Part shown: positions 23,829 through 29,821 of the stretch, one piece after another
Position numbering within the stretch: the first letter of the stretch is position 1
Layout: every line of letters begins with the position of its first letter
Assembly (NCBI GenBank): GCA_009841145.1
Contig: VXMJ01000062.1
Coordinates: 1 to 64,000, forward strand
Length of the DNA: 64,000 nucleotides
Reading direction: 5' to 3'
Source: Caldilineaceae bacterium SB0661_bin_34
GTDB taxonomy: Bacteria; Chloroflexota; Anaerolineae; Caldilineales; Caldilineaceae
Made by a program: the position numbers and the translations under genes
The notes under the pieces: model-generated
Told to the model about the DNA's origin: nothing
What the model saw: the letters and a program-made list of their open reading frames with translations, nothing else
Databases searched by the model: none

Positions 23829-24914
23829 ATGTTGCAGACAGGCCTGTACGACCTGCACGTTGCGTTGCAGGCCCGCATGGTTGCCTACTCCGGGTGGTCG
23901 ATGCCCGTGCAGTATGCGGCGGGCCCCATCAAGGAGCACTTGGCCGTCCGCAAGGCGGGAGGGTTGTTTGATGTCTCTCACATGGCGCGGTTGGAATTGC
24001 GCGGCACCGGGGTTGCAGACTTTCTCCTGCGTGTTCTGACCCGCAGTGTGGCGCGACGCAAACCCGGAGACGCCGTCTACAGTCTGATGACCTACGGCGA
24101 CGGGACCGTAATCGACGACCTGATCGCGGTAAGGAAGGAAGATGGCTGGTTGCTGGTGGCCAATGCCGTCAACCGGCACAAGGACCTGGAATGGTTGCGA
24201 CGACAGGCCAACGGACATGAAGTCGACATCGTTGACGTCACGGAACAAACCTCGATGCTCGCGGTTCAGGGTCCAGATGCGGTGCGGTTGGTTTCGCAGG
24301 TTCTGAGGATCGATGCGGGAAGCCTTCGCCGGTTCAAGGCCCGGACCACAACCTGGGAATCGAAATCGGTTCTCATTACCCGGACCGGCTATACCGGGGA
24401 GGATGGATTTGAACTGGTCCTTCCTCGCACTGTGGGAAGCAGCCTGTTTCAACACCTGCTGGAGACGGGGAGCCCGCGAGGTTGGCTACCCTGCGGACTG
24501 GCGGCACGGGATTCCCTCAGGTTGGAGGCCTGCCTGCCGCTCTACGGGCATGAAATCAGCCAGGACATCAACCCGGTGGAGGCGGATCTGGCATGGGCCG
24601 TGTCCTTCCGCAATCCCAGGTTCATCGGCCGGGATGCGTTGCTCAAGGCATGGCTCGAACCACCCACACGCAGGCTGTGCGCCTTCCGGATGGAGGACCG
24701 AGGCGTGCCGCGCGCCGGTTACGCCGTTTATGATCAGGAGCGGCGGATTGGTACGGTTACATCCGGAAACAAGAGTCCGACCCTTGATCAATTCATCGGC
24801 ATGGCGCTGTGTGATGCCTCGGCAACCCAAATGGAAGGGTTTACGGTGGAAATCCGAGGGCGGCGCCTGTCCGCGTTGGTAGTACCCAAGCCTTTCTACT
24901 CCCGGCCTGCCTAA
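23829..24914 (+). CDS. gcvT: Aminomethyltransferase (glycine cleavage system T protein)
   Basis: 361 residues. T protein transfers the aminomethyl carbon from the lipoyl arm of H protein to tetrahydrofolate and releases ammonia. Family features are YSGWSMPVQYAAGPIKEHLA near the N-terminus, FDVSHMARLEL, TSMLAVQGP, the TRTGYTGEDGFELVLP block and LEACLPLYGHEI. It sits 43 bp before gcvH; gcvP is about 18 kb away in this window, on the other strand. No clear ribosome-binding site is seen. Confidence 0.95.
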   Translation: MLQTGLYDLHVALQARMVAYSGWSMPVQYAAGPIKEHLAVRKAGGLFDVSHMARLELRGTGVADFLLRVLTRSVARRKPGDAVYSLMTYGDGTVIDDLIAVRKEDGWLLVANAVNRHKDLEWLRRQANGHEVDIVDVTEQTSMLAVQGPDAVRLVSQVLRIDAGSLRRFKARTTTWESKSVLITRTGYTGEDGFELVLPRTVGSSLFQHLLETGSPRGWLPCGLAARDSLRLEACLPLYGHEISQDINPVEADLAWAVSFRNPRFIGRDALLKAWLEPPTRRLCAFRMEDRGVPRAGYAVYDQERRIGTVTSGNKSPTLDQFIGMALCDASATQMEGFTVEIRGRRLSALVVPKPFYSRPA

Positions 24915-24956: not shown

Positions 24957-25343
24957 ATGACCGGTTTTTCAGTTCCCTCCGATTTGCTGTATGCATCCAC
25001 GCACGAGTGGTGCGACCGACAGGACGATGTAGTTACCGTTGGCATCACCGACTACGCCCAAGACCAGCTCAGCGACGTGGTGTTTGTCGAATTGCCGGAG
25101 GTGGGCGAGGATTTCGAAACTGGGCAAACCATGGCCACAGTCGAGTCGGTGAAAGCCGCGGCGGACATCTACGCGCCCGTGGCGGGCAGGGTGACCGAAG
25201 TCAACGGGACCCTTTTGGACAACCCCGAGGAGATTAACTCCGATCCCTATGGCAGTTGGTTCCTCAAGCTGGAGGTTGCGCCCGGTCCGGGCAATCCGGA
25301 CCTTTTGGATGCATCCGGGTACCGGGATCTGACCGAGACCTAG
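24957..25343 (+). CDS. gcvH: Glycine cleavage system H protein (lipoyl carrier)
   Basis: 128 residues, normal length. The lipoylation lysine is K66 in TVESVKAAADIY. It has the usual beginning STHEWCDRQDD and GITDYAQDQLSDVVFVELP. It shuttles the aminomethyl group and reducing equivalents among the P, T and L proteins. It lies between gcvT and the J-like membrane protein, all on the plus strand. Confidence 0.96.
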   Translation: MTGFSVPSDLLYASTHEWCDRQDDVVTVGITDYAQDQLSDVVFVELPEVGEDFETGQTMATVESVKAAADIYAPVAGRVTEVNGTLLDNPEEINSDPYGSWFLKLEVAPGPGNPDLLDASGYRDLTET

Positions 25344-25364: not shown

Positions 25365-26573
25365 ATGTTCGGACATGGCCAAGCCATGGCGACAGTCCAC
25401 AAGGTGCCTCCAAAGAAGTTGGCGACAGAGGCGGACGTTGATCAGCTATGGGCCAGGATCCTTCGAAAGCGCCACGCAGGCCACGCATTCCACTACGATG
25501 TGCTGGAGGTGCCGTTGGACGCCTCCCATGAAGAGATCAGGGTTGCCTATCGCTCATGGATGATTCGGCTGGACCGGTTCGAGACCAAAGACCCAGACGT
25601 TGAGAGTCTTCGCCGGAAGGTAGAAAACGCTTGGGCTGTCCTGTCCGATCCCGTCCGGCGGGAACGGTACGATGCCGGTGTCCGCGGAATGCGGGAGACC
25701 GGCCGTCGTTTCGCACCATCGTCGGAGATCGGCCGCGCTGCCGACCGGTGGACACCGGAATCACCAGACTACCTTGGTCTCAGGCAGACATCCGAGCGGC
25801 TGGAAGTTCTCGATGTGCTGAAAGTGGTGAATGGATCGATTGAATTCCGACCGGTTCCGAGCCGCACCAACCAGGTTCTTCTGCACCGGAAATTGCTGGC
25901 GGTTTTGCCGGCGGAGGAACTGCGATTCGATGCCCTGCGCCAACTCTGGATGGTACCCGCCCATCGATTGGCGGCGTTGCGGAGCGTGTTCCAGAATGTG
26001 GATTCTCTTCTGGAACAGGCAGGTCGCGACAGGATCGGCTTCAAGCTCCCGGATTACACGGTTCCGCAGAAAACCACTGAGGTTCAAGAACGTCCGCCCA
26101 AGCCTACTTTCCGCGTTCCAGAGCAGGTCGCACCAACAGGTCAACAGCCGTTCTATACCATCATCGTAGTTGCGCTGGTATTGCTGACGGGCTGGAACCT
26201 CTACGTGGCCGCGGACAACAGCCGGACGGCCGCGGCCGAAGCCACTGCGCAAGCATCGGTACCGGTGCCGGTTATCACACCAATTCCGATTGTCCAGCCA
26301 ACTGCAGCACCCGTTCCGGAACCGACCCCGGTTGTCTTGGCGGCTCGCACTGCCTATCCTCGGGTGCACCTCCGGCGCAGACCGGATCTCAATGCCTACT
26401 CCCTGACCTTGCTCCTGGCCGGAGAGGAATTGGAAGCGCTGGGCCGGTCAGCTGACACAAACGGCAACGCATGGATTCGCATCCGCCGGGGCGACTACCT
26501 GGGATGGTCCGCTGCCTGGACTCTCGAATTGGAAGGCGAAGCAGGTCAGTTGCCGGTTCTGGAGGCGCAGTAG
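25365..26573 (+). CDS. Membrane protein with J-like domain, one TM helix and a C-terminal SH3-type domain
   Basis: 402 residues (395 from the second ATG at 25386). Residues about 43-105 resemble a DnaJ J domain: HYDVLEVPLDASHEEIRVAY, then AWAVLSDPVRRERYD, but the HPD tripeptide that stimulates DnaK is absent (the loop reads RLDRFETKDPD). A mixed central region of ~150 residues of unknown fold follows, then one membrane helix (~262-283, FYTIIVVALVLLTGWNLYVA), a Pro/Val/Thr-rich linker, and a C-terminal bacterial SH3-type domain with VHLRRRPDLNAY and GDYLGWSAAW. This predicts an inside J-like part and an outside SH3 part, perhaps contacting the cell wall. The convergent neighbour encodes a cell-wall synthase. 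Confidence 0.8.
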   Translation: MFGHGQAMATVHKVPPKKLATEADVDQLWARILRKRHAGHAFHYDVLEVPLDASHEEIRVAYRSWMIRLDRFETKDPDVESLRRKVENAWAVLSDPVRRERYDAGVRGMRETGRRFAPSSEIGRAADRWTPESPDYLGLRQTSERLEVLDVLKVVNGSIEFRPVPSRTNQVLLHRKLLAVLPAEELRFDALRQLWMVPAHRLAALRSVFQNVDSLLEQAGRDRIGFKLPDYTVPQKTTEVQERPPKPTFRVPEQVAPTGQQPFYTIIVVALVLLTGWNLYVAADNSRTAAAEATAQASVPVPVITPIPIVQPTAAPVPEPTPVVLAARTAYPRVHLRRRPDLNAYSLTLLLAGEELEALGRSADTNGNAWIRIRRGDYLGWSAAWTLELEGEAGQLPVLEAQ

Positions 26574-26593: not shown

Positions 26594-29500
26594 TTATTGG
26601 TTCGGTTCCGAGTGGTGGACGTAGAAGTACTGTGTTTCCGTTTCGGTTTTGTTACCGGCCCTATCGTACACCTTGATTTGCAGTGCCACCCGTTCCAAAT
26701 AGAAACCATCGGCCGTGTAAATCGCGCCAAAGCCGCTGTCAAACCGACGCATGCGGCCGCGCTTGATGCGGGAGTCGTCGCTGTCGAAGTCGGGTAGCCA
26801 ATCGACGGTTTCCTCCAGAACGACCTGTACCTCCCCCAGAATCTGGCCGGTATCTTCATCGGTCACCTGCTTGACCCCTTGGACCGGCGGGTTGCTCAAC
26901 TGTGCCGAGGGAACATCCCGCATTTCAATCTTCCACCGTTCGTTGAAGGGCGCCACCGCGCTGGTCTTGACCAACTCGTCGTTGATCCAGAACTCGACGC
27001 GATCGATCGACCCCTCGTCAAAGGCAGTGACATGAATGTTGACCTGCTCGTCCTCCCCTTCGACAAAGACCGCATTGGGCTCAGGAGCGGCTGTGGCAAC
27101 CTCGGGCCGGGTGTTGTCCAGGACCAAGGGCACGGCCACGCGTTCCACGATGCCGTTGCGGTACCGGGCCACCAGCGCCAAGTTGTAGAGACCGTCCGGC
27201 CAATCCCAGGAATGCACATGGGCAAGGGCATCGTGGAGGGTTCGCCCGTTGCCGTTGGCCAGCACGGATGCCGGTGTGCTGAAATCGGCAGGTCCCAGTT
27301 CCAGATGCCAGTCGGTTACGTTGGCATCCGAGACGAAGCCGGTGACCGGAAAATCCTGTCGCAAGTACAGTGCAGAGCCGGGTGACGTGATGGCCAGGGT
27401 GCCGGCTGTGTTCGTGCGGACGGTTGGCAGATTGGCGGTAGGCGGCTGGGGCAATCCGCTCTCCACGACCCAGTCATGGGCCTCCAGGGGCAGGATTTGG
27501 AAGAAACGCGTCTCCCGGTTCTCGGGAGGTGTCGAGGCATCCGCCAGTTCTCCGGACTGCCTGTTGATCTCAAACCCTTGCCAGATGTTGTCCGGTCGTG
27601 TGGGTTCTGTTCCCTCGACGAACATTTCCCAGCGCTGTGCCTGGCAAGCATCGGTGGGTTTCAGGCCGCTGGGAGTGCAGACCAGACTGCGCACAATACC
27701 GGGAGGCAGTTCGTACCACCGGACTGGCTTGTCCTTGTGGTACTCGTTCATGACTGCGTTCCAAATGGGCCCGGCACCGGTCAGGCCCGACAACTCCTCC
27801 ATTGGTGTGTTGTCCGTGTTTCCGATCCAGACCCCGATCGCCAACTGCGGAGTGTAGCCAAGGGCCCACGCGTCCCGAATGTTGTTTGTCGTGCCGGTCT
27901 TGGCTGCCACCGGCCGGTCGCGCAGGGTCAAATCGGACTGGTAGCCAAATGCCAGGGCCCGTGACTGGTCGTCGGAAAGGATGTCGGTGACAATGTAGTG
28001 GATTTGGGGTGACAACACGGTGGCCTTGGTTGGTTCTCCCATGGAGTGGAGCACGTTGCCGTCGGCGTCGGATACCTCCAGGATGGATACGGGATCGATC
28101 GTGCGAAAACCCGCCTTTTGGTCTGCCACCGGAACTGGTTGTCCAGCCATCACGCCGCGGTTGCCGAGCACGCTATAGGCATACGTATGGTCCAGAAGGG
28201 CAATCTCGCCACCTCCCAGAACCAAGCTCAGGCCATAGAACTGCGAGCCGCGGTTCAACCCGGTGATACCGAGTCGGTGCGATGTGCGAATGGCGTCCCC
28301 CACCCCGACCTTGTCCATGATTTTGATGCTGGGAATGTTGTAGGACCTGGCCAGAGCCGTACGCAGCGAAACTGGGCCGTGGTATTGCCGATCGAAATTC
28401 TCAGGTACGTAAATGCTGCCGTTTTCCAATTCGAACGGGGTGCGCACGTCCAACAGCATTTCAGCAGCAGTCATTCCGTTTTCCAATCCTGCGATGTAGA
28501 CATACGGCTTGAAGCTTGAACCGGGTTGCCGATCGGCCAGGGATACATTGACCTGTCCGTCGATGGTTCGGTCCTCGTAATCCAGGGAACCCATCATGAC
28601 CAGGATTTCGCCCGATTCTGGTTCAATGGCCACTACCGACGCGTTCGATACGTTCTTACCGGTGTTGGCCAGGCGCCGGACAGTGTCGCGGCTGGTCTCT
28701 TCGGCAAACCTGTGCAGGTCCAGGTCGAGTGTGGAGCGGACCGACAAGCCGTGTTTCCATATATAGAACGGCTCGGCCACGGTGTTGAACTTGCGCTGGA
28801 GTTCCTCCAACACGTAGATACTGAAGTGGGGAGCCAGGCGCAGGTCGAACCGCTCGGCGGCCCCGCTAGCGTAGACAAGCTCCTCGGCGAAGGCGTCATC
28901 CGCCTCCGCTTGGGTGATGTAGCCTGCATCCACCATGCCGTTGAGCGTGATGCCCTGCCGTTCCTTGGCCCGTTCCGGGCTGAAATAGGGATTGAGTGCC
29001 TGGTACTGGGGGATCAGGGCCAGCATCGATGCCTCGGCCAGTGAAAGATCCGAGCTGCTCTTGTCGAAGTAGACATGGCTGGCGGCTTCGATGCCGTACG
29101 CAAGATTGCCGTAGAAGTTGAAGTTCAGATACCACTCGAGGATCTGTTCCTTGCTGTGGCGGCGCGTCAGCTCCATTGCCAGGATCAGTTCCTTGATCTT
29201 CCGCGCATAGCTGCGCTGGGCCCGCTGTTCTACCGGAATGGCCACGTTTTTGATTAGTTGTTGCGTGATCGAGGAACCGCCCTGTACTTCGCCACCAGTC
29301 AGGTTGGACAGGAATGCCCTCGTGATGCCACGCAGCGAAATGCCGGGATTGGTCCAGTAAGTGCGATCTTCCATGGCGATCGCCGATTTCCAAATCCACG
29401 GGGACATGTCCTCCAGCGCGACGTACGTGCGATCGCCACTAAAGGGTCTTGGATCGAGGCTGATCAGCAGCAGGTGCTCCCCGGTTCGATCGTAGATCCG

Positions 29501-29821
29501 CACCGACTGGAATTCCTCTTCCCATTCGGTGAGCGAACCGATGTCGGTCAGTTGGTCCGCGTAGTACGAATACATCCGCAAGCCGGCTCCGGTCATGGCC
29601 ACGGACAGAACCATGGTAAATGCTGCAGACAGTATGAACAGCCAGAATCCGGTTTGCATTCCGGTCGCCACATGGCGTGGCCGGTTCCGTCTTGCGCGGG
29701 CGCGGCGCCGGCGCTGCAGTAGAACCAGGGATGCAGGGGACAGGGTGCGCACGGTTCGCCTAACCCTCGCCAGTCGCTTCGCAATCGATGCGCGTGTGGG
29801 ATGAAAGGGCCATCGGGTCAA
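26594..29821 (-). CDS. Class A penicillin-binding protein (transglycosylase/transpeptidase)
   Basis: 1075 residues. A very basic cytoplasmic N-terminus precedes one membrane helix (about residues 58-78). The GT51 glycosyltransferase shows AMEDRTYW with catalytic Glu151 and GGSSITQQL. The transpeptidase has SSFK with catalytic Ser435, SYN within ARSYNIPS, and KTGT at 641-644. A C-terminal extension of over 300 residues carries beta-rich, Ig-like segments and ends in YFYVHHSE. It polymerises and cross-links peptidoglycan at the outer face of the membrane. It overlaps the start of nothing downstream; upstream it shares 4 bp with a methyltransferase gene, which suggests translational coupling. 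Confidence 0.94.
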   Translation of the reverse strand: MTRWPFHPTRASIAKRLARVRRTVRTLSPASLVLLQRRRRARARRNRPRHVATGMQTGFWLFILSAAFTMVLSVAMTGAGLRMYSYYADQLTDIGSLTEWEEEFQSVRIYDRTGEHLLLISLDPRPFSGDRTYVALEDMSPWIWKSAIAMEDRTYWTNPGISLRGITRAFLSNLTGGEVQGGSSITQQLIKNVAIPVEQRAQRSYARKIKELILAMELTRRHSKEQILEWYLNFNFYGNLAYGIEAASHVYFDKSSSDLSLAEASMLALIPQYQALNPYFSPERAKERQGITLNGMVDAGYITQAEADDAFAEELVYASGAAERFDLRLAPHFSIYVLEELQRKFNTVAEPFYIWKHGLSVRSTLDLDLHRFAEETSRDTVRRLANTGKNVSNASVVAIEPESGEILVMMGSLDYEDRTIDGQVNVSLADRQPGSSFKPYVYIAGLENGMTAAEMLLDVRTPFELENGSIYVPENFDRQYHGPVSLRTALARSYNIPSIKIMDKVGVGDAIRTSHRLGITGLNRGSQFYGLSLVLGGGEIALLDHTYAYSVLGNRGVMAGQPVPVADQKAGFRTIDPVSILEVSDADGNVLHSMGEPTKATVLSPQIHYIVTDILSDDQSRALAFGYQSDLTLRDRPVAAKTGTTNNIRDAWALGYTPQLAIGVWIGNTDNTPMEELSGLTGAGPIWNAVMNEYHKDKPVRWYELPPGIVRSLVCTPSGLKPTDACQAQRWEMFVEGTEPTRPDNIWQGFEINRQSGELADASTPPENRETRFFQILPLEAHDWVVESGLPQPPTANLPTVRTNTAGTLAITSPGSALYLRQDFPVTGFVSDANVTDWHLELGPADFSTPASVLANGNGRTLHDALAHVHSWDWPDGLYNLALVARYRNGIVERVAVPLVLDNTRPEVATAAPEPNAVFVEGEDEQVNIHVTAFDEGSIDRVEFWINDELVKTSAVAPFNERWKIEMRDVPSAQLSNPPVQGVKQVTDEDTGQILGEVQVVLEETVDWLPDFDSDDSRIKRGRMRRFDSGFGAIYTADGFYLERVALQIKVYDRAGNKTETETQYFYVHHSEPNQ

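Follow-up and report, generated by a model that had tools for sequence, protein, structure and literature searches.

The window analysed here, a 64,000-nucleotide stretch of contig VXMJ01000062.1 from Caldilineaceae bacterium SB0661_bin_34, contains a 402-aa open reading frame located between two glycine cleavage genes and a gene for a class A PBP. The encoded protein combines, in this order, a J-like domain, a putative HARP/DRD-like middle domain, a transmembrane (TM) helix, a linker and a bacterial SH3 domain. The features at the locus are as follows.

23829-24914: gcvT, upstream of the 402-aa gene
24957..25343 (+): gcvH, 21 bases upstream on the same strand (Pfam GCV_H, 6.6e-37)
25365..26573 (+): whole gene, 402 aa (ORF list)
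25491..25700 (+): J-like domain, residues 43-112 (Pfam DnaJ, model, fold match, dN/dS 0.21)
25572..25580 (+): site of the HPD tripeptide, Asp70-Arg71-Phe72 (alignment with HPD-bearing J domains, DNA read)
25797..26030 (+): suggested HARP/DRD-like domain, residues 145-222 (alignments, models, sub-threshold PF07443 and non-significant Foldseek matches)
26148..26210 (+): transmembrane helix, residues about 262-282 (hydropathy; helix 263-295 in the model)
26211..26330 (+): Ala/Thr/Pro-rich linker, residues 283-322, probably outside (sequence, charge)
26331..26534 (+): bacterial SH3 domain, residues 323-390, probably outside (Pfam SH3_3, fold match)
26594..29821 (-): class A PBP, downstream and convergent (Pfam Transgly and Transpeptidase)

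Homologues in the genus that begin with M-V-G-[HR]-G-Q at the same position support the start of the gene. A Pfam scan of the protein at E values up to 1 returned DnaJ and two SH3 families and nothing else, with PF00226 (DnaJ) covering residues 43-103 at 42.4 bits against a cut-off of 27.8 (E 7.5e-11) and PF08239 (SH3_3) covering residues 334-387 at 28.8 bits against a cut-off of 27 (E 1.4e-6; 32.5 for the same protein in the genome scan). An AlphaFold model built with 22 homologues had a mean pLDDT of 66.8 and a pTM of 0.28, its J, middle and SH3 domains being of fair to good quality and its linkers poor. The J-like domain is modelled with helices at residues 55-70, 77-94 and 96-112 (mean pLDDT over ten residues 71-87), and beta strands lie within residues 325-389 (pLDDT 86-95). 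Among the 50 fold matches listed, solved J domains superpose on residues ~37-120 (Z 8-10) and solved SH3-type structures on residues 323-392 (Z 8-12, best 11.7).

The protein has a single hydrophobic stretch (best 19-residue Kyte-Doolittle mean 2.05). Because the linkers flanking it carry net charges of +2 before and -2 after, the N terminus is probably inside the cell, which would place the outer linker and the SH3 domain outside. An initial annotation of this locus had described a J-like domain without HPD joined to TM and SH3 regions, and Pfam, hydropathy, alignment of the HPD site and fold matches all bear this out; structure prediction, which it had proposed as a check, recovered the J and SH3 folds. 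The conserved domain between the J-like domain and the membrane was absent from that account. PMC7159879, which describes systems other than this protein, counts bacterial SH3 among peptidoglycan-binding domains. SH3_3 is common in the whole genome (30 hits, 20 above the cut-off), so its presence here says little about a specific function.

Absence of HPD in a conserved family

The 402-aa protein carries the fold of a J co-chaperone with Asp-Arg-Phe (DRF) between helices II and III, where HPD belongs, and a J fold without HPD is what characterizes type IV J-like proteins. DRF is no sequencing slip, since three other members of the genus read DQF, DQL and DQF at the same site. A search of the whole genome returned three J-domain genes, namely two canonical ones with HPD and the gene described here. 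As HPD is lost, the J-like domain should not drive ATP hydrolysis by Hsp70; its helix II keeps several basic positions, and a weak contact with Hsp70 is therefore possible.

Full-length homologues with the same domain order, which the initial annotation had suggested looking for, occur in 31 of 46 genomes of the Caldilineaceae (family f1) and in 6 of its 17 genera (g1, g2, g7, g9, g13 and g16), while the family profile at E 1e-20 finds matches in 33 of the 46. In the remaining 13 genomes, some of them 98-100% complete, nothing matches at E 1e-20, so what the protein does is dispensable or replaced there. HPD is present in none of the 31 full-length homologues (30 read in one alignment, L043 in a separate J comparison), and no copy is disrupted, a single TAG in three genus rows being the normal gene end. 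Alignment A3 comprises the rows of alignment A2 minus 3 of its 25 (L019, L022 and L027).

Of 59 distinct J stretches, 30 lack HPD, all from this protein, and 29 keep it; the latter belong to other proteins and include both canonical DnaJ-type genes of the genome as well as the relatives L096, L131 and L051 (L051 and L098 being one gene). The sample is not random, its loci having been recruited because they matched either the protein or the profile built from it. Fourteen extra stretches had been added to the comparison by choice, 12 of them from the class-search list and two from another list; one of these two, L153 (100 bases), yielded nothing, and the J domain of L132 fell below the script's threshold, yet HPD is present there by eye. 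The residues at the HPD site are D[RQ][FL] in g1, TRS in g2, QGE in g7, TGE in g9, QSG in g13 and ETA or ESA in g16, where the alignment of g7 and g9 may be one residue off (a His precedes) and HPD appears in no register. The initial annotation had proposed conservation of this replacement loop as a check, and the loop proves to be fixed inside genera and to differ across the family. It had also held that homologues with an intact HPD would tell against it; such relatives exist, one in the same family (L096) and two in another (L098 and L131), but all 31 full-length homologues lack the motif.

These relatives vary in composition. L096 (genome G008) has a J domain with HPD, the HARP-like domain, one hydrophobic helix and the start of an SH3 domain (21.2 bits, below the cut-off and clipped by the contig end), and L097 (G010, f1) has no J domain and retains the HARP-like domain, one helix and SH3. 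L098 (G199) and L131 (G167), both of family f49, join a J domain with HPD to a HARP-like domain and have no SH3, L098 having two hydrophobic helices. Other Anaerolineae families have membrane J proteins (L140, L143, L147, L148 and L098) that resemble the 402-aa protein in J sequence type and in their hydrophobic helices but have HPD intact and no SH3, the HARP-like domain being found only in the f49 proteins. HPD is thus kept both by the relatives and by J proteins of other families that contain hydrophobic helices, so the motif was most simply ancestral and was lost, one or more times, inside this lineage. A tree of 30 HPD-less and two HPD rows (L043 left out) has long branches and requires two changes of the HPD label, with a single change in 9% of bootstraps.

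At E 1e-8, a search of the class with at most 6 candidates scored per genome found some match in 298 of 298 genomes; among the matches listed outside f1, coverage was confined to one end of the protein, J or TM-SH3, the exception being G199 with J plus the middle domain. No relative of the protein occurred in the viral contigs searched, and viral spread was dismissed. Three variants were recorded along the way: L097 (6839-8047, -) unites a HARP-like domain, a hydrophobic helix, SH3_3 and a staphylococcal-nuclease-type (SNase) domain in one protein; L132 (1246-1764, -; G122), from another Anaerolineae family, has the swapped order, HARP-like first and J with HPD last; and L150, of family f46, has J with HPD, a hydrophobic helix and a large C-terminal part, and is another protein combining J with a possible envelope domain.

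Within the genus (four genomes, simple counting method), dN/dS is 0.21 for J, 0.23 for the HARP-like domain, 0.17 for TM and 0.27 for SH3, and is higher in the inner linkers (0.72 directly after J, and 0.43) and the first 42 residues (0.56). The domain scores, the 31 full-length homologues and the 0.17-0.27 range of these segments together mean that the domain set is more than chance. The value for J indicates that the disarmed domain is being maintained within the genus, with the caution that the outer linker also scores low (0.23). The J part might instead be a decaying remnant, with TM and SH3 alone mattering, in keeping with the loss of HPD, the differing loop between genera and the existence of a version without J (L097); given the low dN/dS of J within the genus and the intactness of all 31 copies, we regard this as quite improbable.

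A candidate HARP/DRD-like domain

The middle domain is predicted (pLDDT 84) to consist of strands at residues 149-155 and 158-163, a helix at 170-180, strands at 187-189 and 194-198, a helix at 199-208 and a further helix from 212. Pfam assigns no family to residues 145-222 of the window protein. HARP and DRD are one fold, and likeness to it is suggested by sub-cut-off matches of PF07443 (HARP) in 3 of 7 proteins, all remote homologues (21.4, 19.1 and 17.1 bits against 25), and by a Foldseek search in which the SMARCAL1 HARP domain (4o66) ranked 12 and archaeal XPB ranked 5, 7 and 8, none of them significant. That list is mixed, with ParC on top and topoisomerase subunits, aminotransferases and others among its entries, and had no row at E 0.001 or better. 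HARP received no Pfam hit from any of nine family or middle-domain queries, PF07443 was found in none of 100 class genomes, and the best VIA fold match was CASTOR1 (Z 5.2), HARP being absent among the best 50 listed. Kelch-like PDB matches of the middle-domain profiles were discarded as the product of a short repeated motif, YDPERNEW, each copy of which scores <5 bits in the alignments listed. We therefore call the domain HARP/DRD-like as a lead, suggested by sequence profile and predicted fold, with all matches to the HARP domain (PF07443) and the XPB DRD lying below curated or significance limits; unlike those domains, that of the 402-aa protein sits in no helicase.

In the class set of 298 genomes, the middle-domain profile matches 21 at E 1e-4 (18 from f1, the window's family, two from f49 and one weak match from f26); among 400 genomes of the phylum it matches 8 at E 1e-3, one of which is the genome that contains the window. 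The small proteins L134-L138, from two other Chloroflexota families, have a conserved Cys-containing N-terminal stretch (CPVVGQPIC.. in most) and a HARP-like domain, and 3 of these 5 match PF07443 below its cut-off.

PMC6422496 describes the XPB DRD as binding DNA in repair enzymes and chromatin remodelers, and the middle domain could by extension bind DNA or RNA and tie nucleic acid to the envelope. The three sub-cut-off HARP matches, the presence of SMARCAL1 HARP and archaeal XPB on the Foldseek list and the joining of the same module to an SNase domain in L097 all point that way, while the mixed list, the failure of any fold or family match to pass its limit, and the empty HARP and PF07443 searches point away from it. 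The domain has a net charge between 0 and +3 in each of the four genus members, whereas of the 15 full-length family members counted outside the genus, 14 have a negative value (-1 to -8) and one has 0 (six 70-residue segments in this comparison gave 0, +2, -1, 0, -5 and -4). As the charge is negative there, DNA binding is disfavoured outside the window's genus, and a nucleic-acid tether seems very unlikely.

Neighbouring genes

In the genus, gcvH directly precedes the gene in three of the four genomes (in the other one the contig begins 214 bases upstream, without gcvH), and the PBP is downstream and convergent in all 4. In other genera the homologue of the 402-aa gene sits elsewhere, so that the placement between glycine cleavage genes and a PBP pointed out in the initial annotation holds for the genus and not for the other genera compared. 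No neighbour is common to all genera, and thus no partner can be named. Neighbouring ORFs were picked by length, which could hide a gene; antisense ORFs masked the J-like gene in L099 and L105.

The neighbourhood had led the annotation to suggest that the protein senses or scaffolds cell-wall work, and a scaffold acting with the class A PBP would fit the adjacency of the two genes throughout the genus, the PBP of the same cluster ~4.5 kb from the J-like gene in G015 (L101) and the naming of bacterial SH3 as a peptidoglycan-binding domain (PMC7159879). The gene pair is convergent rather than an operon, and around the other 11 full-length genes compared from outside the genus, no such PBP appeared among the length-picked ORFs of the flanking DNA. 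Support from the neighbourhood hence stops at the genus, with none that is general, and we consider a wall scaffold of this kind highly improbable.

Other neighbours are restricted in range. Cluster c3 (sugar-kinase-like by eye) adjoins the gene in seven loci, in g9 and g16 only, and one neighbour was named aldolase-like by eye. Cluster c4, at L104 (6610-7956) and five further loci of g9, is a membrane protein near the J-like gene with apparent LysM repeats joined to a cytochrome c motif, as judged by eye from the L104 copy. In g16, a divergent Hsp70-family ORF of 609 aa lies ~3 kb from the J-like gene (L102:12197-14026 and L103:12291-14120), and the L102 copy matches PF00012 (HSP70) at E 2.3e-16 in Pfam. 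A defence system was dismissed as a candidate: the only PADLOC hit of the window protein was at chance level (E 0.048), and two relatives gave no hit at all.

Precedents and a possible role

A survey of listed titles and the beginnings of abstracts found no description of this protein. The closest known systems include HPD-less and J-type membrane proteins. Pam16/Magmas, a type IV J protein of the mitochondrial TIM23 motor, is alike by description in having a membrane-associated J-like domain with HPD replaced, and differs in being mitochondrial and peripherally associated rather than single-pass. We know of no HARP-like or SH3 domain in Pam16/Magmas. Magmas has Asp-Lys-Ser for HPD, cannot stimulate mtHsp70 and acts in complex with J proteins, as stated in PMC8605242. 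By analogy, the HPD-less J domain described here might pair with an HPD-bearing J protein and modulate DnaK at the membrane; the two canonical DnaJ-type genes with HPD in the genome are candidate partners, and the Hsp70-like gene ~3 kb away in the two g16 loci would suit such a regulator. A gene of that kind is near in only 2 of the 17 loci compared, however, and we hold a Pam16-type regulator to be unlikely.

Chloroplast CJD1 is likewise a membrane protein with an HPD-less J-like domain and no Hsp70 co-chaperone activity in published tests: the domain failed to complement an E. coli dnaJ/cbpA mutant, and in two-hybrid assays it bound ARC6 but not Hsp70, although mutants revealed no functional tie to ARC6 (PMC3196505, in excerpt). 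CJD1 differs in its three TM helices, and that excerpt reports no SH3 or HARP-like domain. Closest in outline is ZipN. In chloroplasts and cyanobacteria, ARC6/ZipN (Ftn2) starts with a J-type domain inside, followed by a further inside region, one TM helix and a C-terminal part beyond the membrane, an order that the 402-aa protein shares, the agreement being one of order with topology inferred. The membrane protein ZipN of Anabaena tethers FtsZ, and the authors of PMC6391411 call the assignment of its N-terminal J-type domain unclear; it differs in having 798 residues and, apparently, other middle and C-terminal regions. The genome studied here yields a single FtsZ/tubulin-family match and three to the FtsA family, of which one lies ~400 bases from the FtsZ match, and SepF was not found in it. 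With FtsZ- and FtsA-family genes present, no substitute ZipN-type tether is called for, which weakens the case for a ZipN-like tether of the divisome.

The locus thus encodes a real, conserved and unusual membrane protein that is a new domain combination on a known kind, the HPD-less J-like membrane proteins. Our preferred reading, at a probability of about 0.45, is that the protein crosses the membrane once and acts as a tether or scaffold: its disarmed J domain would bind a protein partner rather than drive Hsp70, and SH3 would hold it at the envelope. With the N terminus inside, the J fold kept without HPD would offer a docking surface for a protein partner, a role suggested by analogy, since known HPD-less J proteins serve in this way. 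The adjacent HARP/DRD-like domain may provide a second docking surface, and the Thr/Pro-rich linker and SH3 outside, through whatever ligand SH3 may bind, would hold the complex to the cell envelope or read it. Several observations count against this tether: no gene adjoins it in every genus, the replacement loop varies across genera, 13 family genomes do without the protein, helix II retains basic positions, L096, with J, HARP-like, TM and SH3 regions, keeps HPD, SH3_3 is widespread in the genome, and the CJD1 and ZipN precedents have the weaknesses given above. More speculatively, and as a long shot, the protein could be a lineage-specific pseudo-J, an Hsp70-driving membrane J protein turned envelope-to-cytoplasm tether, with the HARP/DRD-like domain gripping nucleic acid or a nucleic-acid machine and so linking wall and nucleoid.

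In the papers cited, HPD-less J proteins come from mitochondria, chloroplasts and, less surely, cyanobacteria, and here they occur in a bacterial family. Relatives with and without HPD that share an unusual domain set would form a natural series for the role of a J domain once it is unable to drive Hsp70, and the middle domain points to an undescribed HARP-like module in proteins of the Chloroflexota.
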